This document shows positions 24,241 through 38,040 of a stretch of 64,000 nucleotides of DNA, piece after piece. The stretch is taken from the NCBI GenBank assembly GCA_014323865.1, contig JACONG010000018.1:1-64000 (forward strand). Direction: 5' to 3'. The position numbers were made by a program, and so were the translations under genes. Each line of letters opens with the position of its first letter. Within the stretch, counting starts at the first letter, position 1. Source of the stretch: Rhodospirillales bacterium. GTDB lineage: Bacteria; Pseudomonadota; Alphaproteobacteria; SP197. Under the pieces are notes generated by a model, which saw nothing but the letters and a program-made list of their open reading frames with translations, had not been told where the DNA came from and made no database searches.

Positions 24241-24286
24241 GAATTTCCAAGCTGTTTCAAGCAGTTGCGGCAGGGGATATTGTCAT

Positions 24287-24574
24287 ATGTCGCTCGACAA
24301 AGCCACCGTTGTGCGCATCTCACGCCTGGCGCACCTTGCCACCACAGACGAAGAGCAGGATCGGCTTGCCGGCGAGCTCTCCGGCATCCTCGACTGGGTC
24401 GAACAGCTGGATGAAGTCGACACCGACAACGTCGAACCGATGACCAGCGTCGTCGAGATGCTGCTGAAGGCTCGTGAGGACCAGATCTCCGATGGCGGCA
24501 TCGCCGAGGACATCGTCAGGAACGCACCGAAATCCGATCACGGCTTCTTCGTCGTGCCGAAGGTGGTGGAATGA
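24287..24574 (+). CDS. gatC: Asp-tRNA(Asn)/Glu-tRNA(Gln) amidotransferase subunit C
   Basis: A 95-residue subunit that wraps GatA and GatB together. Typical motifs are [31 protein letters not shown] and VEPMTSV, with the conserved C-terminal [11 protein letters not shown]. It is the first gene of gatCAB, and its TGA overlaps the gatA ATG (ATGA at 24571-24574). Confidence 0.97.
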
Positions 24575-26040
24575 GCGCGCTCACCGATCTCACCATCGCG
24601 GGCGCCCGAAATCTGCTGGCCAAGGGTGATGTCTCGTCCAGGGAACTGACCGAAGCGCAGATCGGCGCGATGGAGACCCATCGCGAGCTCAACGCCTTTA
24701 TCACCGAAACGCCCGAGATCGCGCTCGAGATGGCGGAAGCGTCCGACGCCCGGCGCGCGAAGGGAGAGACAGGCAGGCTCGAAGGCATTCCGGTCGCCAT
24801 CAAGGATCTCTTCTGCACCAAGGATGTCCTGACCACCGCAGGGTCCCACATCCTCGACGGCTTCCATCCGTTCTACGAGTCGACGGTGACCACCAACATG
24901 TTCGCTGAAGGCGCGGTCATGCTCGGCAAGACCAATCTCGACGAGTTCGCGATGGGTTCGGCGAACCTCACGAGCCACTACGGTGGCGCGATCAACCCGT
25001 GGCGTGCGAAAGGCGACAATCGGCGGCTTGTGCCTGGCGGTTCCTCGGGCGGTTCGGCTTCAGCCGTTGCCGGCCGGCTGGCGCTGGGCGCGACCGGCAC
25101 GGACACCGGCGGCTCGATCCGCCAGCCTGCCGCCTTCACCGGCATCGTCGGCGTGAAGCCGACCTACGGGCGCTGCTCGCGCTGGGGCATCGTGGCCTTC
25201 GCCTCGTCGCTCGACCAGGCCGGTCCGATGGCGCGCACGGTGCGCGATTCGGCGATCATGCTGGGTGCCATGTCCGGCCACGATCCCAAGGACTCGACCT
25301 CGGCCGATGTCGCGGTCCCGGACTTCGAGGACGGTCTCGATGCCGGCATCAAGGGCATGACGATCGGCATTCCGAAGGAGTATCGGGTCGAGGGCATGCC
25401 CGACGAGATCGAGGCGCTGTGGCAGCAGGGCATCCGCTGGCTCGAGGAGCAGGGGGCGACGACCGTCGAGATCAGCCTGCCGCACACGAAGTACGCGCTG
25501 CCGGCCTACTACGTCGTGGCTCCGGCCGAAGCCTCGTCGAACCTGGCCCGCTATGACGGCGTGAAGTACGGCCTGCGCGTCGACGGCGAAAACCTGATCG
25601 ACATGTACGAGAAGACCCGTGCCGAGGGCTTTGGCGCCGAGGTGAAGCGCCGCGTCCTGATCGGCACCTACGTGCTGTCGGCGGGCTACTACGATGCCTA
25701 CTACCTCAAGGCCCAGAAGGTCCGCACCCGCATCGCCGACGATTTCCGCAATGCGTGGCAGACGGTCGATGCGATCCTGACGCCTGCGACGCCATCGGCT
25801 GCGTTCAGCGCCGATGATCCGCCGACCGATCCGGTGGCGATGTACCTCAACGACGTCTTCACCGTGCCGGTGAGCATGGCCGGACTGCCCGGCATCTCAG
25901 TCCCGGCCGGGCTGACCGCCGACGGCCTGCCGCTCGGCCTGCAGGTGGTAGGCAAGGCGTTCGACGAAGCGACCGTGCTGCGTGTCGGACGGGCGCTGGA
26001 AGAGGCTGCCGCGTTCGAAGGGCGGCCGGAGGGATACTGA
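24571..26040 (+). CDS. gatA: Asp-tRNA(Asn)/Glu-tRNA(Gln) amidotransferase subunit A
   Basis: A 489-residue amidase-signature glutaminase that releases ammonia for transamidation. The Ser-cisSer-Lys triad is visible: Lys in [10 protein letters not shown], the cis-Ser in [15 protein letters not shown] and the nucleophile in [14 protein letters not shown]. The length is normal. A complete GatCAB means that Gln-tRNA and/or Asn-tRNA is probably made by the indirect route, as usual in Alphaproteobacteria. Confidence 0.97.
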
Positions 26041-26042
26041 CC

Positions 26043-27497
26043 ATGGCAACGACGATCGAAGGGGCCACGGGCACCTGGGAGTATGTGATCGGGCTGGAGG
26101 TGCACGCCCAGATCATCTCGAACTCGAAGCTCTTCTCGGGCGCTTCGGCAGCGTTCGGCGCCGAGCCCAATGAGCATGTCTCGCCGGTCGACGCGGGCAT
26201 GCCGGGCATGCTTCCCGTCATCAACATGACCTGCATCGAGCAGGCGGTGAAAACGGGGCTGGCAATCAACGGTACGATCAACACGCATTCGGTGTTCGAC
26301 CGGAAGAACTACTTTTATCCCGATCTGCCGCAGGGTTATCAGATCTCGCAGTACAAGCAGCCCGTGGTTTCCGACGGCCATCTCGAGATCGAGCTTGAGG
26401 ACGGCGAGACCAAGCGCATCGGTATCGAGCGCCTCCATGTCGAGCAGGACGCCGGCAAGAGCCTGCATGATCAGGATCCCTCGAGCTCCTATGTCGATCT
26501 CAACCGGTCTGGTGTCGGGCTGATGGAGATCGTCTCCCACCCGGAACTGCGCTCGCCCGAAGAGGCTGCGGCCTATGTCCGCAAGCTTCGCACGATCCTG
26601 CGCTACGCCGGGACTTGCGACGGCAACATGCAGGAAGGCTCAATGCGTGTGGATGCCAACGTCTCCGTGCGCAAGCCGGGCGACGAATTCGGCACGCGCT
26701 GCGAGATCAAGAACCTGAACTCCGTGCGCTTCCTGCAGCGCGCTGTCGAGTTCGAGGCCTTGCGTCAGATCGACATTCTGGAAGGCGGTGGCACGATCGA
26801 TCAGGAAACGCGCCTGTTCGACGTCGGCCAGAACGTGACGCGCTCGATGCGTTCCAAGGAAGAGGCGCACGACTACCGCTACTTCCCTGATCCCGACCTC
26901 TTGCCGTTGCGCCTGGAGCAGGCCTGGATCGACGGCATCGCCGCGACCATGCCGGAACTGCCGGACGTCAAGCAGGCCCGTTTCATGAGTAACTACGGGC
27001 TCTCGGCCTATGACGCCGGGGTACTGGTTGCCGAGAAGGAGAACGCGGATTTCTACGAGGCCGTTGCCAAGGGCCGCGACAAGAAGCTTGCCGCCAACTG
27101 GGTGATCTCCGAGCTCTTCGGCCAGCTCAACAAGGTGGGCAAGACGGTCAAGGAAAGTCCGGTCAGCGCCGCGGCGCTGGGTGAACTGATCGATCTCATC
27201 AGCGACGACACGATTTCGGGCCGCATCGCCAAGGACGTCTTCGCCGAGATGTTCGAGACCGGCAAGGGTGCCGCCGCCATCGTCGACGAGAAGGGGCTCA
27301 AGCAGGTCACCGACACTGGCGCGATAAAGGCTGTCATCGACGAGGTCATGGCGCGCGAGTCCGAGAAGGTCGCGGAGTACCGGGGTGGCAAGGACAAGCT
27401 CTTCGGCTTTTTCGTCGGTCAGGTCATGAAAGCTTCGGGCGGTAAGGCCAACCCCAAGGCCGTCAACGAGATCCTGCGCAAGAAGCTCGACGCCTAA
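26043..27497 (+). CDS. gatB: Asp-tRNA(Asn)/Glu-tRNA(Gln) amidotransferase subunit B
   Basis: A 484-residue kinase/transamidase subunit. It starts near [19 protein letters not shown] and has the conserved [17 protein letters not shown] and [12 protein letters not shown]. The C-terminal helical and YqeY-like domains (residues about 300-484) bind tRNA. It begins two bases after the gatA stop and completes the operon. A palindromic repeat element (27519-27630) lies directly downstream. Confidence 0.97.
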
Positions 27498-27518
27498 CGT
27501 GGCCCTGTACTTCTCCGT

Positions 27519-27630
27519 GTCATCCTGGTCGAGCGAAGCGAAAGCCGGGATCTCTGCCAGCATGACTCGTGTGGCAAAGCGTGGCTGGGATCCCGGATCG
27601 CGCTCGTTTCACTCGCTTGTCCGGGATGAC
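27519..27630. repeat. Long imperfect inverted repeat of the intergenic-element type
   Basis: The left arm (27519-27560, GTCATCCTGGTCGAGCGAAG...) and the right arm (27585-27630, ending ...CTTGTCCGGGATGAC) are imperfect reverse complements of about 42-46 bp around a 24-bp centre. The GTCATCC...GGGATGAC ends and the AAGCGAA/CGATCCGGGATCC core look like the dispersed intergenic palindromes common in alphaproteobacterial genomes. No second copy is in this window. It could fold as a stem in the RNA and end or stabilise the gatCAB transcript. Confidence 0.65.
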
Positions 27631-27652
27631 GTCCCGGGGATGGTGCTGTCGC

Positions 27653-29941
27653 ATGGCTGAGCTGCCCGAGAACGTGCATTCCGACACGCTGCTGGCCCAG
27701 GCGCTGGGCTGGCTTGAGGAGACTTCGGGTGGCGTGGTGCCGGCGATCCAGCTGGCGACGACCTACGTTCGCGATCCGGCCATGAAGCCGTCAGAAGGCA
27801 TCTGGTACAGTCGTCCCGACAACCCCTGCTACTGGCAGGTCGAGGCGCTGATGGTGCGCTTGGAGAATGCCGAAGCGGCAATGGTGACAGGGTCAGGTTC
27901 GGCTTCGATGGCGATGATTTTCGAGGCTCTTGATGCGGGCGATCACGCCCTGGTGCCCAACTACGGCTATGGCGGGCTGCACTACCTCGTGCACGACATG
28001 GTGAACCGCTGGGGCATCATCGTCGACAGCTACACGGTCGGCGATTTCGAGGAATTGGCGGCCAAGGTGCGCCCCGGCAAGACGAAGGTGGTCTGGGTGG
28101 AAACGCCCATGAACGCCGAGATGGTGGTGGTCGACGTCGCGGCGGCAGCCGAGATCGCTCATGAAGCCGGTGCGCGGCTGGTTGTCGACGGGACGTTCTG
28201 CCCGCCGCCGATCCAGCGTCCTCTCGACCACGGTGCTGACATCGTTCTCCATTCGGCGACCAAGTTTCTGAACGGTCACAGCGACGTCGTCTGCGGCACC
28301 ATCGTCTGCCGCCACAAGGATGATTACTGGGAACGGCTGGAACGCATGCGGCGCCGCTCTGGCGCGGTTCTCGGGCCGTTCGAGACCTGGCTTTTTCTGC
28401 GCGGTTTGCGCACGCTCCATTTGCGCATGGACCGGTCGCAGGACAACGCGATGGCCGTTGCGACATGGCTGCAGGACCAGCCGCATGTGGCGCGGGTCTA
28501 CTATCCGGGCCTTGCGGATCATCCGACCCACGACGTCGCCCGTCGCCAGATGGCAGGTTTCGGCGGCATGGTGTCGTTCGACATTCATGGCGACGAAACC
28601 GAGGCGCTGCGCATCTGGAGCAGCACCAGCATCATCAAGAACGCCACGTCGCTGGGCGGGCCCGAGACGCTGATCGAGCATCGCAAGAGCACCGATGGTT
28701 ATGAGTCGCCGGCCCCTGCGAATCAGCTTCGTCTCTCGCTTGGTCTGGAAGATGCCGAGGACCTGATCGCGGATCTCGATGCCGCGCTGTCCCGTCGCGC
28801 ATCGAACCGCTCCAAGGGCCGCTCGACGAAGATTGCCCAAGGCCTGGGCTGGATCAGTATTGATCACAAGGCCGTCGTGCTGCCGGTCCATCTGGCCACG
28901 ACTTACGCGACCGATCCCGCCGCCTACGGCAAGCCCTACGCCTATGCGCGCGACCAGAACCCGACCTTCGAGCAGCCCGAGGCGCTGATCGCCGATCTCG
29001 AGGGCGCGGCTGAGGCTCGGCTCTTCGCCTCCGGCATGGCGGCGGCATCAGCCGTGTTCCAGGCGCTCCGGGTGGGCGATCACGTTGTGATGCAGGAAAC
29101 CCTCTACTGGGCGCTCCGCGGCCTGATGAAGGGGGTCGTCGAGGGCTGGGGCATCGACGTAAACTGGTTCCCGACCGGCGATCTCGACGCTTTGCAAGAG
29201 GCCGTTCGACCCGGGGTCACGAAGATCGTCTGGCTGGAGACACCCGCCAATCCGACCATGACGGTGACCGACATCGCGTCCGCCACAGCGATCGCCCAAG
29301 AGGCCGCGGCCGTGAGTGTGGTCGACAACACCTTTGCCACGCCGCTCCTGACGCGCCCGCTGGAGCTCGGTGCCGACATCGTCATGCATTCGGCAACCAA
29401 GTATCTCAACGGCCACAGTGACGCCGTCGCGGGTGTCCTTGCGGCGCGCCAGACGTCACCGTTCTGGGAGCGCGTCGGTCATATCCGGCACATGACGGGT
29501 GCCATACTCGGTCCGTTCGAAGCTTGGCTTCTGATGCGTGGCCTGCGCACCCTGGAACTGCGCGTGGCGCGCGCATGTCACAACGCTGCCGCAATCGCAC
29601 GTCATCTCGACGGTCACCCCGCCGTCGATCAGGTGCTCTATCCGGGCCTTCCGGGGTTTGCCGGTCACAACATTGCCGGTGCGCAGATGACCGACGGCTT
29701 CGGCGGGATGCTCTCGATCCGCATACGCGGCGGGGAGGAAGCTGCGCGCCGGGTGTGGAGCCACTTCCGCATCTTCAAGATCGCGACCTCGCTGGGCGGT
29801 GTCGAGAGCCTTGTCGAACACCGCGCCACAGTGGAGGGGCCGCAGAGTCCCGTCCCCACCGACCTGCTACGGCTCTCCGTGGGCGTCGAGGACGCGGACG
29901 ATCTGATTGCCGACCTCGACCAGGCATTGCAGGCGGCCTGA
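27653..29941 (+). CDS. Tandem fusion of two Cys/Met-metabolism PLP-dependent enzymes (cystathionine synthase/lyase family)
   Basis: This 762-residue protein consists of two complete fold-type-I PLP domains (about 10-385 and 390-762) joined by a short basic linker. Each has the family marks: the YSR/YAR-xxNP segment that reaches into the partner active site (Y52-S53-R54; Y431-A432-R433), the cofactor Asp (D179; D558), the PLP lysine in [10 protein letters not shown] (K204) and [10 protein letters not shown] (K583), and the carboxylate-binding Arg in [10 protein letters not shown] and [10 protein letters not shown]. The halves share long stretches such as [19 protein letters not shown] versus [19 protein letters not shown], so they arose by tandem duplication. 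The N-half is the more divergent (DGTFCPPP against canonical DNTFATP). Normal family members are single domains of about 400 residues forming dimers of dimers. The reaction is unknown; C-S lyase or gamma-synthase chemistry is likely. Confidence 0.9.
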
Positions 29942-29960: not shown

Positions 29961-30689
29961 ATGCCCTTTCTTCCGATCAAGGACGACAATCCCCTTCGCC
30001 TGATCCGCTTCCAGGCGGTCACGGTGACGTTGATCGTGCTGTGTGCGCTGGTCTTCCTCTGGCAACAGAGCCTGAGCCAGCAGGCGTTATGGGAGGCCTG
30101 GGTCGGCTACGGCCTCATTCCCGCAGTCCTGACCGACGAAGCGATCATCCCGCCGGAACTGGTGCGCATTCCGGCCTGGCTTTCTCTTGTGACCTCGATG
30201 TTCCTGCACAGCGGGTACTTTCACCTCGGTGGCAACATGCTGTTCCTCTGGGTCTTCGGCGACAACATCGAGGACGCCACGGGGCATGCCAAGTTCCTCG
30301 TCTTCTTTCTGACCTGTGGCGTGATCGCCGGCTTGTGCGAGATCCTGTCGGGACCCGAATCGACGGTGCCTATCGTCGGTGCCAGTGGTGCCATTGCCGG
30401 CGTGCTTGGCGCCTATCTGATGCTCCATCCGCGCCGCCGGATGCTTGTGCTGATTGTGCGTGCGATACCCATCTATCTTCATGTCGGGATCGTTCTCGTG
30501 GGGTGGATCATCTTCCAAGTCGGCGCAGGTGTCTGGTTCGCGGGTGAAGGAGGCAGCGACATCGCATGGTGGGCGCATGTAGGTGGTTTCGTCGCGGGTG
30601 CGGCGCTGATCCCGCTGTTCAAGCGTCCCGACGTACCGCTGTTCGACCAGACCAGCGTCGTGATCCATGACTTTAGAAAAAAAACATAA
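29961..30689 (+). CDS. Rhomboid-family intramembrane serine protease
   Basis: This 242-residue protein has six or seven transmembrane segments. The catalytic Ser is residue 142 in GASGAIAG and the His is residue 206 in WAHVGGFVAG. The oxyanion-side motif HSGYFHLGGNMLFLWVFG precedes them. It should cleave membrane proteins within or near their transmembrane helices; substrates are unknown. It starts 19 bp after the tandem PLP gene and may share its transcript. The last codons and following bases are unusually A-rich (30668-30686). Confidence 0.93.
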   Translation: MPFLPIKDDNPLRLIRFQAVTVTLIVLCALVFLWQQSLSQQALWEAWVGYGLIPAVLTDEAIIPPELVRIPAWLSLVTSMFLHSGYFHLGGNMLFLWVFGDNIEDATGHAKFLVFFLTCGVIAGLCEILSGPESTVPIVGASGAIAGVLGAYLMLHPRRRMLVLIVRAIPIYLHVGIVLVGWIIFQVGAGVWFAGEGGSDIAWWAHVGGFVAGAALIPLFKRPDVPLFDQTSVVIHDFRKKT

Positions 30690-31476
30690 CACTATGATAG
30701 AATTATATTCGGGTTGGTTTTCAAGGTGCCCGCCAGTATCTGCGCGGTCATGTGCAGGGGTAGAGTCGAGCACATCCTGATACGTGGGCGGGGTATGGTG
30801 GGCCGCTTTGGTCATGGGTGTTCCGTTCTGTTTTCTCGGTCGTGCCGGTCGCCTTTTCGCACTGGCCTAGTCATCCCCAGTGCAGCCATTCAGCAGCGAC
30901 AGGCTTTTGCTGCATACAGGTCGAACACGTTGGTTGCGAGTTGTAAATCTGGCATGATCACCGGTCCTTAATGAAGACGCTGCACTCCTTGGAGTGAGAC
31001 ATGAGGTTGTCGATCCCTGCTGTGATGTTCCATCTACAGTTGACTCTTGCGCCGCTGTCGACGGTTTGGATTGTCACGATGCGATCACGAAAATGGCGAT
31101 CGCGTCCGGAGCGGTGATGGATCTCGGGCATAACCGTGATGTCGGCAGATCGCAGCGCGGGGCGCACCTCCTCCATTAGCCTGCGTTCTTGAAATACCTT
31201 TTTTGGCACTAAGGACTCTTGTTTTGTGGATTAAAGAAGTGCTAGCGTCAGTTTCCTGATGAATTTGCAAGCACTTCCAGAACGTAACAGAATTTCTCTT
31301 CCTTTTTATCTATTCATTACCTTTGGACAGAGAGTAGTGCATCTAAATTTAAGCTATTCGCGCGACCAAGCGTCAAAGTTTTGCGTTTTCCAATGAGAAA
31401 TATTCATTCACTGATACTTTTGCCGATTGCATGTGAGTGCTAGTCTGAGGAAGATTGCAATTTGCAGGTTGTTGCG
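30690..31476. other. Long intergenic stretch at the left edge of the distinct cassette
   Basis: About 790 bp without a convincing gene. The sequence is more AT-rich than the core genes, above all at 30665-30715 and 31200-31440. A small minus-strand frame at 30958-31209 is listed separately. A possible promoter for the next gene is TTGCCG (31420-31425) with TAGTCT (31441-31446), but the 15-bp spacing is short. Confidence 0.5.
30958..31209 (-). CDS. Small hypothetical protein, doubtful
   Basis: An 83-residue frame begins with GTG (MPKKVFQERRLMEEVRPALR) and has a balanced composition with a basic centre. No family is recognised and no clear ribosome-binding site is seen. It lies in an otherwise empty, AT-richer stretch, which makes chance less likely than in GC-rich DNA, but it could still be a random frame. 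Confidence 0.3.
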   Translation of the reverse strand: MPKKVFQERRLMEEVRPALRSADITVMPEIHHRSGRDRHFRDRIVTIQTVDSGARVNCRWNITAGIDNLMSHSKECSVFIKDR

Positions 31477-32283
31477 ATGGGTGTTTCCGACCTTTCTCTG
31501 CTCCGCGAAACCGAAGAGCTTCGCGCTCAAATCCGGGCGGGTCAGATTACGGGCCCGACTGCGGGAATGGCCGCGGGTCGAATGCAGGCTAATCTGGTTG
31601 TGCTGCCCGAGGATTTTGCCGATGCGTTCCACGACTTCTGCCTGTCCAATCCGCAACCATGCCCTCTGCTTGCGATTACGGAACTGGGGCAAAGCACTGT
31701 TCCCGCTCTTGGCGCAACGATCGATCTGCGCTCGGACCTGCCAAGATACAGAGTTTGGCGGGACGGCGCCATTGTCGATGAGCCAAGCGATGTGACATCG
31801 ATTTGGCGAGAGAACCTAGTTGCCTTTGTTTTGGGGTGTTCCTTCGGGTTCGAAACAGCCATGATGGAGGCGGGTATCAAGTTGCACCATGTGACTGCCG
31901 GCAGAAATGTTCCGATGTATGACACGAAAATACCTCTGCAATCGACCGGGCCGTTTGGGGGCACAATGGTTGTTTCCATGCGCCAGATTCCCACAGACCG
32001 GGTCGAGGACGCCATCAGGATTTCCGGCCAGTTTCCGCAATGCCATGGCAAGCCTGTTCATGTTGGGGAACCTTCTGACATTGGGGTCGCGTCGATTGAA
32101 CACCCCGACTATGGTGATCCTCCCGTGGGTGACGGTGTACCGATGTTCTGGGCATGCGGGGTGACGCCACAAACTGCCCTCCGTCGGGCCAGACCCCCGT
32201 TTGCCATCACTCATGATCCCGGGAGGATGTTGATCTGCGACATTCCTGCGACTTGGGACCAAGTGCTGAACCCGGCGACATGA
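31477..32283 (+). CDS. DUF1445 / D-glutamate cyclase-like putative hydro-lyase
   Basis: This 268-residue protein matches the YcsI/DUF1445 family: RAGQITGPTAGMAAGRMQAN near the start, then LPxDFAxxFxxFCxxNPxPCPLL, DLPRYRVWRDG, FVLGCSFGFE, and a C-terminal THDPGRMLICD. Family proteins are called putative hydro-lyases, and the mammalian relative is a D-glutamate cyclase, so a dehydration or cyclisation of a small acidic metabolite is likely. The ATG at 31477 is used; a TTG at 31462 is possible. It is the first gene of the distinct cassette, and its stop overlaps the LysR start (ATGA at 32280-32283). Confidence 0.88.
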   Translation: MGVSDLSLLRETEELRAQIRAGQITGPTAGMAAGRMQANLVVLPEDFADAFHDFCLSNPQPCPLLAITELGQSTVPALGATIDLRSDLPRYRVWRDGAIVDEPSDVTSIWRENLVAFVLGCSFGFETAMMEAGIKLHHVTAGRNVPMYDTKIPLQSTGPFGGTMVVSMRQIPTDRVEDAIRISGQFPQCHGKPVHVGEPSDIGVASIEHPDYGDPPVGDGVPMFWACGVTPQTALRRARPPFAITHDPGRMLICDIPATWDQVLNPAT

Positions 32284-33191
32284 TGAAGCGAATCACGCTG
32301 GAGACTTTCATAGCCTTGGCGCATCTGCGTCATTTCGGCAAGGTAGCCCGGCAGTTGAATACCACGCAATCTACGGTCTCTGCGCGAATTGCGTCCTTGG
32401 AACAGGAGTTGGGTGCCGCTTTGTTCACGCGTGCGCCGAATTCGGTTTCCCTGACGCCCAAAGGTCGTACGTTATTGGAACACGCGGTGGAAATCGTGGC
32501 TGGCATGGACAGAATGTCGATGGCGGCCGGCAAGGACCCCAAACAGGAAAGAACCCTGCGTCTGGGCGTGTCGGAAATACTCGCCTCAACAATCCTGCCG
32601 TCGTTCTTTGCATCGTTTTCCAAAAAGTTCCCGGCCTCCAGTCTGGAGATTATCGTCAACAACACGACCTACCAGAGAGATCAGTTAATCGACCGCGGGT
32701 TGGACCTTGCATTGTTAATGGGGCCCGTTTCCAATGCACGGGTCGCAAATATTCCGCTGATGGACTTTACGATGATCTGGGTGGCGGCTACGGATCATCC
32801 TCTGGCATCCGTGCCAGAGATCACCTTGGACGACCTGACCGAAAACCCGATTCTGAGTTATCCCACCAGTTCACGACCCTGTATCGAATTGACCAACGCA
32901 TTGCGAAAGGCGGGCGTCCATACGCCGCGGCTGTTTTCATCCAACGTGATGGGCGCGAGCGTTGAGATCACTTGCAAAGGGTTCGCAATTTGCACACTGC
33001 CGGGCGTTTATGCCGAACCGTTCATTACAGATGGATCCCTGGTCGAACTGGCGGTTCCGATCCAACTGAACCCGATCTCGTTCACGGCGTCGTATCTTGC
33101 AGAACCGGGAAACGAACTGGCACGGGAAGCGGCGCAGATAGCGGTGGATACAGCCCGACAGTGGGAAGAGTCCGATCGAAAAAGTCGATAG
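32280..33191 (+). CDS. LysR-family transcriptional regulator of the cassette
   Basis: A 303-residue regulator. The N-terminal helix-turn-helix reads LETFIALAHLRHFGKVARQL followed by NTTQSTVSARIASLEQELG and SLTPKGRTLLEHA, which is the LysR pattern. The rest is a periplasmic-binding-like effector domain (LRLGVSEILASTIL...). It is co-directional with and overlaps the DUF1445 gene instead of being divergent, so it is probably co-transcribed with it. The TRAP genes start 82 bp downstream and are its likely targets. Confidence 0.92.
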   Translation: MMKRITLETFIALAHLRHFGKVARQLNTTQSTVSARIASLEQELGAALFTRAPNSVSLTPKGRTLLEHAVEIVAGMDRMSMAAGKDPKQERTLRLGVSEILASTILPSFFASFSKKFPASSLEIIVNNTTYQRDQLIDRGLDLALLMGPVSNARVANIPLMDFTMIWVAATDHPLASVPEITLDDLTENPILSYPTSSRPCIELTNALRKAGVHTPRLFSSNVMGASVEITCKGFAICTLPGVYAEPFITDGSLVELAVPIQLNPISFTASYLAEPGNELAREAAQIAVDTARQWEESDRKSR

Positions 33192-33273
33192 CAATAAACA
33201 CAAAACGACAATTGGCTGTGATCGATCAGGTATCGTAGTCTCACATTGGTTGTCGAAAAATGGGGAGACTCTG

Positions 33274-34314
33274 ATGAAGCTGCCGATTCTGTCCACCTGC
33301 TTGCTGGCTATTGCTGCATTGCCCGCAATCGCAGAGGACCTGCAGGAAACCAAACTGAACGTCGTAGGGTCATGGGGCATGGTGTCGATGTACACCGACT
33401 TTACCCAGCCATTTTTTACGTCCACCCTGCCAGAAGTGTCGGGCGGCGCAATCACCGCTGAAATCCGACCATTCAACGAGCTGGGTATGGATGGGTCCGA
33501 GATCATCCGTCTGGTCGAGCAAGGTACGCTGCAATTTGCCGAAACGCCGATGGGCTATCTGATCGGCGACAATGCTCTGAACGGCGGTAACGATCTGCCG
33601 GGACTTGCACCTGATATCGAAACGGCCCGCCTTATCTCCGATGCGTGGCAGCCGGTCATGGCCAAGGAGTATCGCGACAGGTACAATATCGAACTGCTGG
33701 CTGTGTATCCCTATTCCGCGCAGGTCGTCTATTGCCGCGATGAGATGAACGGGCTCTCGGACCTGTCCGAGCGCAAGATCCGCGCCTCGGGATCGGCCAT
33801 CGGTGACTTTGTCGAAGCACTCGGTGGAACTCCGGTCTCGATGAGTTTTGGTGAGGTCGTTCAGGGGTTGCAGACCGGTGTAATCGATTGCGCCATTACC
33901 GGTTCAATGTCGGGCTTCAATGCGCGCTGGAACGAGGTAGCCACACATATCTATGAGTTGCCTATTGCGTGGTCGCCGGTCGTGCTGGTTGTAAATGGCG
34001 AGCTGTGGGACGGGTTGGACGTAAAGGTCCGCGATTTCCTTTCCGAGCAATTCGTGACATTCCAGGATTCCGTTTGGGAAGGCGCCGGTCTGGAAACGGC
34101 CGAAGGTTTTGCCTGTAACGCTGGTGAGCTCTCCTGCACCCGTGAAAATCCAGGCTCAATGAAGCGTGTCCCTGTCTCCGAAGCCGATATCGCATTGCGC
34201 GACAAGATCCTGCGCGATGTGGTTTTGGCCAACTGGGGCAAACAATGCGGCGCGGATTGTGTCAAAACATGGAATGAAACGGTCGGTTTGGCGACAGGTA
34301 CGGCCATCGAATGA
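33274..34314 (+). CDS. dctP: TRAP transporter solute-binding protein (DctP type)
   Basis: A 346-residue periplasmic protein with a signal peptide (MKLPILSTCLLAIAALPAIA, cut before EDLQ). DctP-like features include the early GxWGMVS segment, NELGMDGSEIIRLVEQGTLQ, and the ligand-contacting region KIRASGSAIGDFVEALGGTP followed by EVVQGLQTGVIDCAITGSMS. It captures an organic acid for the membrane proteins encoded next. GGGGAG lies seven bases before the ATG. Two Cys pairs near the C-terminus (ACNAGELSC and CGADC) are unusual and may form disulfides. Confidence 0.92.
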   Translation: MKLPILSTCLLAIAALPAIAEDLQETKLNVVGSWGMVSMYTDFTQPFFTSTLPEVSGGAITAEIRPFNELGMDGSEIIRLVEQGTLQFAETPMGYLIGDNALNGGNDLPGLAPDIETARLISDAWQPVMAKEYRDRYNIELLAVYPYSAQVVYCRDEMNGLSDLSERKIRASGSAIGDFVEALGGTPVSMSFGEVVQGLQTGVIDCAITGSMSGFNARWNEVATHIYELPIAWSPVVLVVNGELWDGLDVKVRDFLSEQFVTFQDSVWEGAGLETAEGFACNAGELSCTRENPGSMKRVPVSEADIALRDKILRDVVLANWGKQCGADCVKTWNETVGLATGTAIE

Positions 34315-34385
34315 CCTTCGGCTTCGGGAACCATGCTGCGCGAGCAATTTGCTTTCCGATCCTTTTGAGGCGCTAGAGTTCCAAG

Positions 34386-34955
34386 ATGTATGTGTTTGCT
34401 GAACGACTGGCCACATGGATGGCACGGGCCTGTGGCTTTACACTATTGATTTCGGTCGTGATGATTTCGGCCGAGGTTCTTTGCCGCCGTCTGCTGGGCG
34501 TTAGCCTCGTTGGCGCGGATGAACTTTCCGGTTACGTTCTGGCCATTATCGTAACTTGGGGATGCTCACTGGCTATCATCCGTCGCGCACATGTGAGGAT
34601 TGATATTCTGCATGCGCAACTGCCGCGAATGGGACAGGCTGCCCTGGATCTTCTTGCGCTGCTGGCGATGGCGGCATTTGCCTTCTTCCTGGCCTGGTTC
34701 GCGACCGGTTTGTTCGAAAATTCGTGGCGCACGGGCGCCGTTTCCAATAGTCAGATGCAAATCCCACGCTGGATTCCGCATGGGCTGTGGGCGGCCGGGT
34801 TCTGGGTATTCGGGGTGGTGACGGTGCTCCTTATCCTCGAATACCTGCTGGCACTGAGTAACCGCGATTGGGATCGCGCAAGACTGGTCGCTGGTGTGCG
34901 GGGGGCCAAGGAAGAGGCGCAGACCGAAACACGCGAAGCAAAAGAAAGACTGTAA
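34386..34955 (+). CDS. dctQ: TRAP transporter small permease (DctQ type)
   Basis: A 189-residue protein with four hydrophobic segments. It contains the DctQ pattern EVLCRRLLGVSLVGADELSG followed by a helix, then RRAHVRIDIL, and ends in a charged tail. It is the scaffold subunit between the binding protein and the large permease. The large-permease start follows its stop by one base. Confidence 0.9.
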   Translation: MYVFAERLATWMARACGFTLLISVVMISAEVLCRRLLGVSLVGADELSGYVLAIIVTWGCSLAIIRRAHVRIDILHAQLPRMGQAALDLLALLAMAAFAFFLAWFATGLFENSWRTGAVSNSQMQIPRWIPHGLWAAGFWVFGVVTVLLILEYLLALSNRDWDRARLVAGVRGAKEEAQTETREAKERL

Positions 34956-34956
34956 C

Positions 34957-36243
34957 TTGCTTCTGACGGCTTTGATCCTGCTGGTCGTTCTGATCGCCGC
35001 AAGCCTGCACATCGCAGCCGCTCTGGGCGTGATGGGTATCATTCTTGACCGCACGTTTGGCTTTCTTCCCCTCTACAAGGCGGCGGGAGAAGTTGCATGG
35101 ACGGCCTCTTCTGGATTTTTGCTGATGGCGATCCCGCTCTTTGTGTTGTTGGGAGAGATCATGCTGCGATCAGGTGTGGCAGATGCGATGTATGATGCGC
35201 TGGCCAAATGGCTGGGCTGGCTGCCCGGTGGTGTGATGCACGCCAACATCGGGGCCTGCGCCCTGTTTTCGGCAACCTCTGGATCGTCTGTTGCAACTGC
35301 CGCAACAATTGGGACTGTCGCCGTGCCGCAGATCGACCGGCATGGGTATGGCCCACGGCTATTTCTGGGTACGCTTGCAGCGGGCGGAACGTTGGGAATT
35401 CTGATCCCGCCATCCGTGAACCTGATCATCTACGGTATTCTGACCAACACATCGGTGCCTCAGTTGTATTTGGCGGGCATTGCCCCCGGCCTGATCCTTG
35501 CTGCGCTGTTCATGCTGGTGATCATTTTTATCGCCGTTTTAAGTCCGGACACGGCAGGCCACCGCGCGCAATACACGCTGGCCGAGCGTTTCCACGGCAC
35601 ATTGGGCGTTATTCCTCCGATACTGGTTTTCATCGTTGTGATCGGTTCGATCTACGCGGGATTTGCAACCCCGACCGAAGCCGCCGCATTGGGCGTAGTT
35701 GCCGCGTTGATCATTGCGGTCGGGCGGCGCAGGCTGAACTGGAAGATGCTGAACGAGGCGCTGGAAGGCACAGTTGTTACGACCGCGATGATCATCCTGA
35801 TAATCATTGCCGCCTACATTCTGAACATGATCCTGTCGGGCATCGGCCTGACGGCGCGGTTGAATGAATACGTCACTGGCCTTGGTCTGACGTCGATGCA
35901 GATGTTGTTGGTCGTAGTGGTTTTCTATCTGATCCTGGGCTGTTTCATGGAAACGCTCTCGATGATGATCACGACCATCCCGATTATCGCGCCCTTGATG
36001 TTCAGCTTGGGATTCGACCCCGTTTGGTACGGTATCGTCATGATGATCCTGATCGAAACTGCGTTGATCACGGCTCCGATCGGGCTGAACCTATATGTGG
36101 TGCAGGGTGTCCGTGGGCGCGGGCCGATGACCGACGTGATGATCGGAGCATTGCCCTTTGTCGGCGCAATGTCGGCGATGATCGCGTTGTTGGCGGCCGC
36201 GCCGGAGCTGGCAACCTGGCTGCCCACTGTGTTGATGCGGTGA
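34957..36243 (+). CDS. dctM: TRAP transporter large permease (DctM type)
   Basis: A 428-residue protein with about a dozen transmembrane helices and DctM motifs: FLLMAIPLFVLLGEIMLRSG, ANIGACALFSATSGSSVATA, AAGGTLGILIPPSVNLIIYG, FATPTEAAALGVVAALI and LGCFMETLSMMITTIPI. It catalyses Na+-driven uptake of the bound solute. The best start is a TTG at 34957, one base after the dctQ stop; starting further upstream would put non-hydrophobic residues in front of helix 1. Confidence 0.93.
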   Translation: MLLTALILLVVLIAASLHIAAALGVMGIILDRTFGFLPLYKAAGEVAWTASSGFLLMAIPLFVLLGEIMLRSGVADAMYDALAKWLGWLPGGVMHANIGACALFSATSGSSVATAATIGTVAVPQIDRHGYGPRLFLGTLAAGGTLGILIPPSVNLIIYGILTNTSVPQLYLAGIAPGLILAALFMLVIIFIAVLSPDTAGHRAQYTLAERFHGTLGVIPPILVFIVVIGSIYAGFATPTEAAALGVVAALIIAVGRRRLNWKMLNEALEGTVVTTAMIILIIIAAYILNMILSGIGLTARLNEYVTGLGLTSMQMLLVVVVFYLILGCFMETLSMMITTIPIIAPLMFSLGFDPVWYGIVMMILIETALITAPIGLNLYVVQGVRGRGPMTDVMIGALPFVGAMSAMIALLAAAPELATWLPTVLMR

Positions 36244-36261
36244 ACAGGGAATGATGAAGCA

Positions 36262-37149
36262 ATGACGGTAATCGCCTTTATCGGACTTGGAACAATGGGA
36301 CGGCCGATGGCAGAGACTTTGCGCCGCGCCGGGCACGACGTCATAGGAATGGATATCGATCCTGAAACGCGGGCGGCTATCGAAGGTGCGGTCGCTCCGT
36401 CCGTCGATGCCGTGGCAGGCGCGGAAGTTGTTGTGACCATGTTGCCCGAGGGACATCACGTGTCCGATGTCCATGAAGATGTGATTCGACCAGGCGTCCG
36501 ACCGGGTACGCTGATCATTGACTGCTCGACCATAGATGTTGTGACCGCACGGGGTCTTGCTGAATTCGCTGACACGCTTGGCTTGGCAATGCTGGATGCC
36601 CCGGTTTCCGGAGGTCCTGCCGGTGCCGAAACCGGTAGTCTCAGCTTTATGGTCGGAGGGTCCCTAGAGGCGCTCGAACAGGCGCGCCCGCTCCTGCAGG
36701 TGATGGGTTCCCAGATTACGCATTTCGGCACGGTGGTGGGTGCAGGGCAGGCCGCCAAGACGTCTCACAATATGATTTGTGGCATCACCGCTATGGCCGT
36801 CATGGAGGGCTTTGCCCTTGCTGACGCCCTCGGGCTGGACTTGGGTAAATTCTATACCTTGTGTGTCGGTGCCGCTGCGCAAAGCTGGACGTTGGAAAAT
36901 CGCTGCCCGATCCCCGGAATTGTGGCTGACGCCCCAGCGTCAAACGACTTTGCTCCCGGTTTTGCTGTGAGCCTCATGGCCAAAGACTTGCGCCTTGCAC
37001 AATCAGCCGCCGCTGCTTGTGGTCAAGCCACCCCATTTGGCGCCGAGGCCGCTCACGCGTTCACCGAGTTCTCAGAAATAGCAGGTGACCGTGATTTTTC
37101 GGCATTCTACGAAACGCTTCGGCACCTGCCCGATGCCAAATTGAGTTAA
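36262..37149 (+). CDS. 3-Hydroxyisobutyrate dehydrogenase-family beta-hydroxyacid dehydrogenase
   Basis: A 295-residue NAD(P)-dependent enzyme: IAFIGLGTMGRPMAETLRRA is the dinucleotide-binding motif, LDAPVSGGPAGAETGSLSFM the substrate-binding loop, and the catalytic Lys lies in GAGQAAKTSHNM. The usual K-x-x-N-N reads K-T-S-H-N, so one Asn is replaced by His. It probably oxidises the beta-hydroxyacid imported by the TRAP system or produced by the DUF1445 protein; the substrate is not known. It is the last intact gene of the cassette and is followed by a decayed aminotransferase. Confidence 0.92.
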   Translation: MTVIAFIGLGTMGRPMAETLRRAGHDVIGMDIDPETRAAIEGAVAPSVDAVAGAEVVVTMLPEGHHVSDVHEDVIRPGVRPGTLIIDCSTIDVVTARGLAEFADTLGLAMLDAPVSGGPAGAETGSLSFMVGGSLEALEQARPLLQVMGSQITHFGTVVGAGQAAKTSHNMICGITAMAVMEGFALADALGLDLGKFYTLCVGAAAQSWTLENRCPIPGIVADAPASNDFAPGFAVSLMAKDLRLAQSAAAACGQATPFGAEAAHAFTEFSEIAGDRDFSAFYETLRHLPDAKLS

Positions 37150-37352
37150 TGGCATCAATTGGTTCTGTGCTTATCGTGCGATTGTGTTTGAAAGTTAAAA
37201 CTGTGGTCGTCGTCTGGAGAACAGCTGGATTTTACCTCTTTGATATAGGCGCTTAGTCTATTGACTGTGTGTTCCGTAAGGTTTACATATCGGTTGGTGA
37301 ATTTGAAGTCAGTGAAGATCTAAATCAGACCATATACTCATCAGACTGAAGG

Positions 37353-37826
37353 GGTCTTGTTTGCAAGCGACCTCGTTGGGGGGAGGCTCGACATCACGGT
37401 CGTCGGCAAGATGCTTGGTGGCATTGCACTTTCGGCGGCTGCGGTGATTGCAGCAGGATCGCTCGACAGTGCGCCCGGGCTCGACTTCGTCTTACTTCGT
37501 CTACTTCATCCACGAGAAGAACCCGCCGCTGGCCCGCTCGGATCTCCTCACGCTTGAGATCATCGAGCGCGACAATCTCGTCTAACGTTCGGCAGGGCTC
37601 GGGTGTGTTGCCTGGACTGTCTTGAGCGCCTGCGGCAGCGTTCGTCGGGGTGCACATCACGGCATGTCGTGGTGTAGGCCTGAACCGGGGCTTGGAACGC
37701 GGCCTGATCGTCAATGTCGGCACCAGAGGTGATTCCGTCAAACCGGGCTTCCCGCTCAACGTCGCGGACGAGGATGTTGGCGCTGCGTTCGCGATGTTTA
37801 CCGACGTGCTCAAAGGTCCGTACTGA
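37353..37826 (+). pseudogene. Decayed class III (omega-type) PLP aminotransferase
   Basis: Fragments in several frames match the second half of class III aminotransferases: LDITVVGKMLGGIALSAAAV with the PLP lysine region (D-x-T-x-x-GK-x-x-GG), FIHEKNPPLARSDLLTLEII with ERDNLV before a TAA, and GLNRGLERGLIVNVGTRGDS followed by GFPLNVADEDVGAAF before the stop at 37824-37826. The N-terminal half is absent. It lies downstream of the hydroxyacid dehydrogenase in the same direction, so a transaminase plus beta-hydroxyacid dehydrogenase pathway may once have been encoded. Confidence 0.6.
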
Positions 37827-37888
37827 ACTCTGCACGGATTCATTCTCCTGCGTTGACGCGCCGGAGCTATGCACCTAGAACCGGCGGC

Positions 37889-37979
37889 GGAGAGGTGGCC
37901 GAGTGGTCGAAGGCGCTCCCCTGCTAAGGGAGTATGGGTCAAAAGCCCATCGAGGGTTCGAATCCCTTCCTCTCCGCCA
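37889..37979 (+). tRNA. tRNA-Ser (anticodon GCU)
   Basis: The acceptor stem GGAGAGG (37889-37895) pairs with CCTCTCC (37969-37975), followed by the discriminator G and an encoded CCA. The anticodon stem CTCCC/GGGAG (37916-37920, 37928-37932) encloses a loop with GCT at 37923-37925. The long variable arm and the T-arm GGGTTCGAATCCC are as expected for tRNA-Ser. It reads AGC/AGU codons. It is intact amid decayed genes. Confidence 0.97.
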
Positions 37980-38040
37980 CAACTCACTCGTGGGCTTTTC
38001 GAAACAATTGGTCCGGGACCTTCGGTCGTTGTCGCTGCAT

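Follow-up and report, generated by a model that had tools for sequence, protein, structure and literature searches.

We describe a gene that encodes two complete PLP-dependent enzymes of the Cys/Met-metabolism family joined head to tail in one protein, a conserved and clade-restricted new architecture within a well-known family. We lean towards the view that the product is the catalytic pair typical of the cystathionine gamma-synthase/lyase (CGS/CGL) family, covalently linked and asymmetric, with two PLP-competent, non-identical sites. Table 1 lists the features of the gene and its surroundings in the window, by which we mean the whole 64,000-nucleotide stretch that was analysed.

A tandem gene with one unbroken reading frame

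The frame is unbroken from the ATG to the stop codon ending at 29941, and the start is backed by the relatives, which begin with MADLP at the same place; a longer ORF opening with a GTG at 27569 was considered as the start and set aside for lack of such support. Each half alone exceeds the PF01053 gathering cut-off of 27 bits (scores in Table 1), and within the window protein the two halves are 48% identical over 359 aligned residues, which bears out the description of two full PLP domains in one chain given by an earlier, sequence-only reading. Chance is out of the question as the source of the paired domains. That reading had also described a constant offset of 379 residues between equivalent positions. 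This holds for K204/K583, D179/D558 and Y52-x-R54/Y431-x-R433 but not for R360/R740, since a one-residue insertion raises the offset to 380 after about residue 300.

Table 1. Features of the fused gene and its neighbours (coordinates within the window)
Feature	Position	Strand	Basis or remark
Fused tandem Cys/Met-metabolism PLP enzyme, 762 aa	27653..29941	+	Open frame; PF01053 twice; 9 carriers in the order, 8 complete copies
N-half, residues 1-380, fold-type I PLP domain	27653..28792	+	PF01053, 367.5 bits
N-half Y52-S-R54, inter-subunit phosphate-binding segment	27806..27814	+	Tyr and Arg unchanged in both halves and in the single-domain relatives
N-half D179, cofactor Asp	28187..28189	+	Invariant
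N-half K204, PLP Schiff-base Lys	28262..28264	+	Invariant
Linker, residues 381-391	28793..28825	+	Length kept across orthologues; sequence variable except N385-R386
C-half, residues 392-762, fold-type I PLP domain	28826..29938	+	PF01053, 376.3 bits; phmmer matches to solved CGL/CGS chains
C-half Y431-A-R433, inter-subunit segment	28943..28951	+	Tyr and Arg invariant
C-half D558, cofactor Asp	29324..29326	+	Invariant
C-half K583, PLP Schiff-base Lys	29399..29401	+	Invariant
gatC-gatA-gatB, conserved upstream genes	24284..27497	+	Synteny; junction sequences
Rhomboid-family gene, conserved downstream neighbour	29961..30689	+	PF01694; synteny

Distribution

The fusion is present in 9 of the 16 genomes of the window's order, one of the nine copies being cut by a contig end, so that the comparisons below use 8 complete fused orthologues, the window protein included. 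The 16 genomes make up one family, and the carriers span three genera. Three further members of the order have a close single-domain homologue instead (G003, G011 and G013) and four have neither; none of the 16 has both forms. The next best match in the fused genomes scores 274-292 bits, against 362-385 bits for the single-domain homologue in the three unfused ones. The first 61 genomes searched gave full-length matches in this order alone, at 66-77% identity to the window protein. A set of 385 genomes drawn from the class gave only two full-length matches, both members of the order, and a set of 398 drawn from the phylum gave only the window's own genome. Thus no fusion was seen outside the order among about 770 genomes sampled within the phylum, where the homologues were single-domain only, and none among the listed plasmid matches; because two candidates were scored per genome in the class and phylum searches, distant independent fusions may have been missed. 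A strong single-domain homologue, for which the C-half is the best match, occurs in about one-sixth of the class sample.

Most of the relatives come from metagenome-assembled genomes (MAGs): the named records belong to uncultured alphaproteobacteria, and depositors gave some of them a Rhodospirillaceae label. This origin could invite the suspicion that two neighbouring genes were joined in assembly or annotation, but the same fusion, with the same length and linker, recurs in nine separate genomes from three genera of the family, and the frame is unbroken and conserved, with strong codon-level constraint over both halves. We therefore regard such an artefact as vanishingly improbable and take the fusion to be a natural one, found at one locus (gatC-gatA-gatB-fusion-rhomboid) in all nine genomes. 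Where the flanks of single-domain loci were inspected, they contained no separate N-like and C-like genes next to each other.

Genomic context

The fused gene directly follows gatB in all carriers examined, with the rhomboid gene 3′ of it wherever the contig extends far enough. In most relatives its start lies within about 15 bases of the gatB stop or overlaps it, which suggests that the two genes share a transcript. In the window, about 155 bases (27498-27652) separate them, and another genome of the set (G010) also has inserted bases there; weak copies of part of the insert (approximately 27590-27640) occur at four other sites in the genome, so that this part may be a small dispersed repeat. 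The single-domain homologues can occupy a similar place: in G013 and G031 they come immediately after gatB, and in G011 and L039 about 3 kb past it.

The neighbours of the single-domain homologues are consistent with thiol or S-conjugate chemistry. Genes for GSH-dependent disulfide oxidoreductase-like (YfcG-like) GSTs adjoin them in about 13 of 50 loci, an old-yellow-enzyme-like reductase lies nearby in G011 and G013, and OsmC or MetQ/NlpA genes are found near them on two plasmids. The GST association is limited to the single-domain relatives, no GST gene being found beside the fusion. In three members of the genus that lack the fusion (L115, L117 and L118, from G003, G007 and G006), a YfcG-like GST gene directly follows gatB.

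Two other features of this genome deserve mention. A second PF01053 gene (G000:C10:19591-20828; L027 and L028) lies in two different frames, with profile positions 1-158 in one and 159-380 in the other, and is thus frameshifted or split. Within the window, positions 30001-38000 have a G+C content of 0.55-0.58 versus about 0.64 and are possibly an acquired island; this stretch includes a D-glutamate cyclase-family gene (31462-32283; PF07286) and, judging from translations, a LysR-type regulator, a TRAP-type transporter and a 3-hydroxyisobutyrate dehydrogenase-like gene.

Both halves retain the catalytic residues

Eight residue pairs are invariant in both halves of all 8 complete orthologues: Y52/Y431, R54/R433, Y106/Y485 (the stacking Tyr), N154/N533, D179/D558, K204/K583, S333/S713 and R360/R740 (the carboxylate Arg). 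The sequence-only reading that the PLP Lys, the cofactor Asp, the Y-x-R segment and the carboxylate Arg are kept on both sides thus holds across the set. The S-x-T-K context of the Lys occurs in both halves of the window protein and is constant in the 8 orthologues with one exception, the N-half of the G014 protein (L006), which has Met instead of Thr at residue 203 (T203M).

Most first-shell residues are identical between the two halves. A set of residues is nevertheless fixed only in the N-halves (S/T83, H110, Y127, P184, N330, P337 and D348), suggesting that the N-site differs from the C-site. The motif NYGYGG, which the sequence-only reading had singled out as an N-half deviation, does not belong among these differences: Y-G-G is the usual family motif, so the N-half does not deviate here, and it is the C-half and the single-domain relatives that carry Y-W.

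Origin and selection

In the phylogeny the N-halves form one clade (support 100) and the C-halves another (99), which fits a fusion that arose once within the order. The stem branch is 0.66 for the N-halves versus 0.26 for the C-halves, in agreement with the earlier view of the N-half as the more diverged. Placing the N- and C-halves as sisters was allowed (p-AU 0.67 and 0.11), so that an origin by duplication is plausible. A joint clade of N-halves, C-halves and the single-domain genes found in G011 and G013 was rejected (p-AU 0.0009), which speaks against a source in the type of single-domain gene that unfused members of the order carry today. A Trp at position 322 is common to both halves and to one single-domain protein, from G085.

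Pairwise omega (Nei-Gojobori count) is 0.04-0.27 for the N-half and 0.04-0.21 for the C-half, although the wider pairs are near synonymous saturation, so that only the two closest pairs (N/C, 0.04/0.04 and 0.14/0.11) are roughly quantitative. Purifying selection acts on both halves, and the N-half evolves faster. The earlier suggestion that the N-half has a different or only structural role therefore fares unevenly: a purely structural role is disfavoured, since the Lys, Asp, Tyr, Asn, Ser and Arg are invariant and omega is low, whereas a distinct N-site is suggested by the N-specific fixed residues.

Predicted structure

AlphaFold models for two species (mean pLDDT 76-77, pTM 0.77-0.78) contain two family-type domains. 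The structural alignments (VIA-align) covered residues 2-383, with single chains of CGL, CGS and MGL compared one domain at a time, and the match to CGL/MGL chains reached Z of about 41 over those residues. The pTM is higher than we would expect for two freely placed halves, but the arms that bear the Y-x-R segments (approximately residues 22-58 and 399-438), which in this family exchange between subunits, have mostly pLDDT <50. The models thus at most suggest that the two halves may dock as the classic family dimer.

Likely chemistry

From motif spacing (Y114 plus 5), we take the position of human CGL Arg119 to correspond to Y111 in the N-half and G490 in the C-half. Two other residues of the human enzyme, E59 and E339, align with W51/A430 and T332/T712, and all 39 single-domain relatives in the comparison likewise have Thr in place of E339. 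In human CGL these two glutamates position cystathionine and are tied to cystathionine specificity (PMC6073527), and variants changed at E59 and E339, or at E59, R119 and E339, are associated with cysteine/methionine degradation (PDB titles 5eig, 5tsu). As neither half keeps the human residue at any of the three positions, cystathionine is unlikely to be a substrate. Instead of an enzyme that cleaves or makes cystathionine, we infer a C-S lyase whose substrates would be small thiol amino acids or S-conjugates; no biochemical data were found on the single-domain subfamily or on the two halves.

The family models do not assign a more specific function. Neither half alone reaches the NCBIfam equivalog cut-offs for CGS, CGL or MGL: the best model, PRK07811, gives 355-382 bits per half versus a cut-off of 513, and the methionine gamma-lyase model gives 306 and 331 bits versus 549.7. 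The whole-protein scores of 731.7 bits (PRK07811) and 632 bits (methionine gamma-lyase) are higher because two domains are summed.

A proposed one-chain dimer with two sites

In the arrangement that we favour, residues 1-380 and 392-762 of one chain would pack as the usual dimer, with Y52 and R54 completing the C-site and Y431 and R433 completing the N-site, and two fused chains would form the usual four-domain particle. Both sites would bind PLP. In this order the fusion would have taken the place of the single-domain homologue, with the C-half keeping the ancestral activity of the latter and the N-half having drifted in substrate range. Small thiol amino acids or S-conjugates would undergo elimination (C-S lyase activity).

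Two other arrangements have to be weighed against this covalent dimer. The two composite sites, each built from both halves, might run different reactions; for example, the C-half might act as a lyase and the N-half might catalyse replacement, racemisation or some other C-S reaction. The fusion would then couple two steps, with a product passed between the sites or one site regulating the other. The N-site does have residues of its own (S/T83 for Met462, G107-G108 versus W486 in the C-half, and further H110, Y127, P184-P186, N330, P337 and D348), and the N stem branch is long. Yet most first-shell residues are alike in both halves, faster drift alone could explain the differences, and sequence assigns no reaction to either site, so we consider such a bifunctional enzyme rather unlikely. 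A catalytically idle N-half, serving as a scaffold or regulator of the C-site as in glycine decarboxylase or the serine palmitoyltransferase subunit LCB1, would agree with its faster evolution and has those fold-type I precedents (PMC7259800; PMC5519370). But the precedents have lost the Lys or cofactor binding, whereas K204, D179, Y106, N154, S333 and R360 are kept in all the N-halves, as is the S-x-T-K context in all but the G014 protein; we judge this the less probable of the two by some distance.

Comparison with known systems

The active sites of this fold-type I family are each built from two identical chains, so that the two sites of a natural enzyme cannot be changed separately. A fusion that keeps both sites makes each composite site alterable alone, which would test communication between sites and the passage from a homodimer to an asymmetric enzyme without loss of one site. 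With the catalytic parts kept in both copies and the fused form conserved across related species, this gene of little-known, uncultured alphaproteobacteria points to a natural pseudo-dimer within a single chain, with two different active sites. It also marks a putative C-S lyase-like subfamily of the Alphaproteobacteria as a target for assays. The sequence-only reading named no described enzyme of this form, and we likewise found no fused pair with both Lys kept in the openly searchable literature.

Each half has the fold, Lys, Asp, Y-x-R, SLGG and carboxylate Arg of the single-domain PF01053 enzymes (CGS/CGL and methionine gamma-lyase), but these have one domain per chain rather than two, and human CGL E59 and E339 are replaced here. 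Among solved structures, Thermobifida CGL (8sf4) and M. ulcerans MetB (3qhx) give the best sequence matches. Closer is the alphaproteobacterial single-domain homologue, annotated as "PLP-dependent aspartate aminotransferase family protein", which is about 49-58% identical to the C-half and shares with the fusion the Thr at the E339 position, an E-H-R segment and, in G013 and G031, the place after gatB; it usually has Trp at the equivalents of 112 and 157, a residue missing there from both halves of the fusion.

The nearest analogue in architecture belongs to another family. The glycine decarboxylase P-protein, an unusual fold-type I enzyme that occurs as one long chain or as an alpha-beta pair, likewise joins two fold-type I halves in its single-chain form, but its N-half has Gln in place of the catalytic Lys (PMC7259800), leaving one active site per pair; its profile (PF02347) matches the fused protein at about 20 bits, below the cut-off of 26. 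Eukaryotic serine palmitoyltransferase LCB1/LCB2 is also an asymmetric pair of related fold-type I proteins, but there the partners are separate chains and LCB1 is thought not to bind the cofactor (PMC5519370), LCB2 alone being thought to bind PLP.
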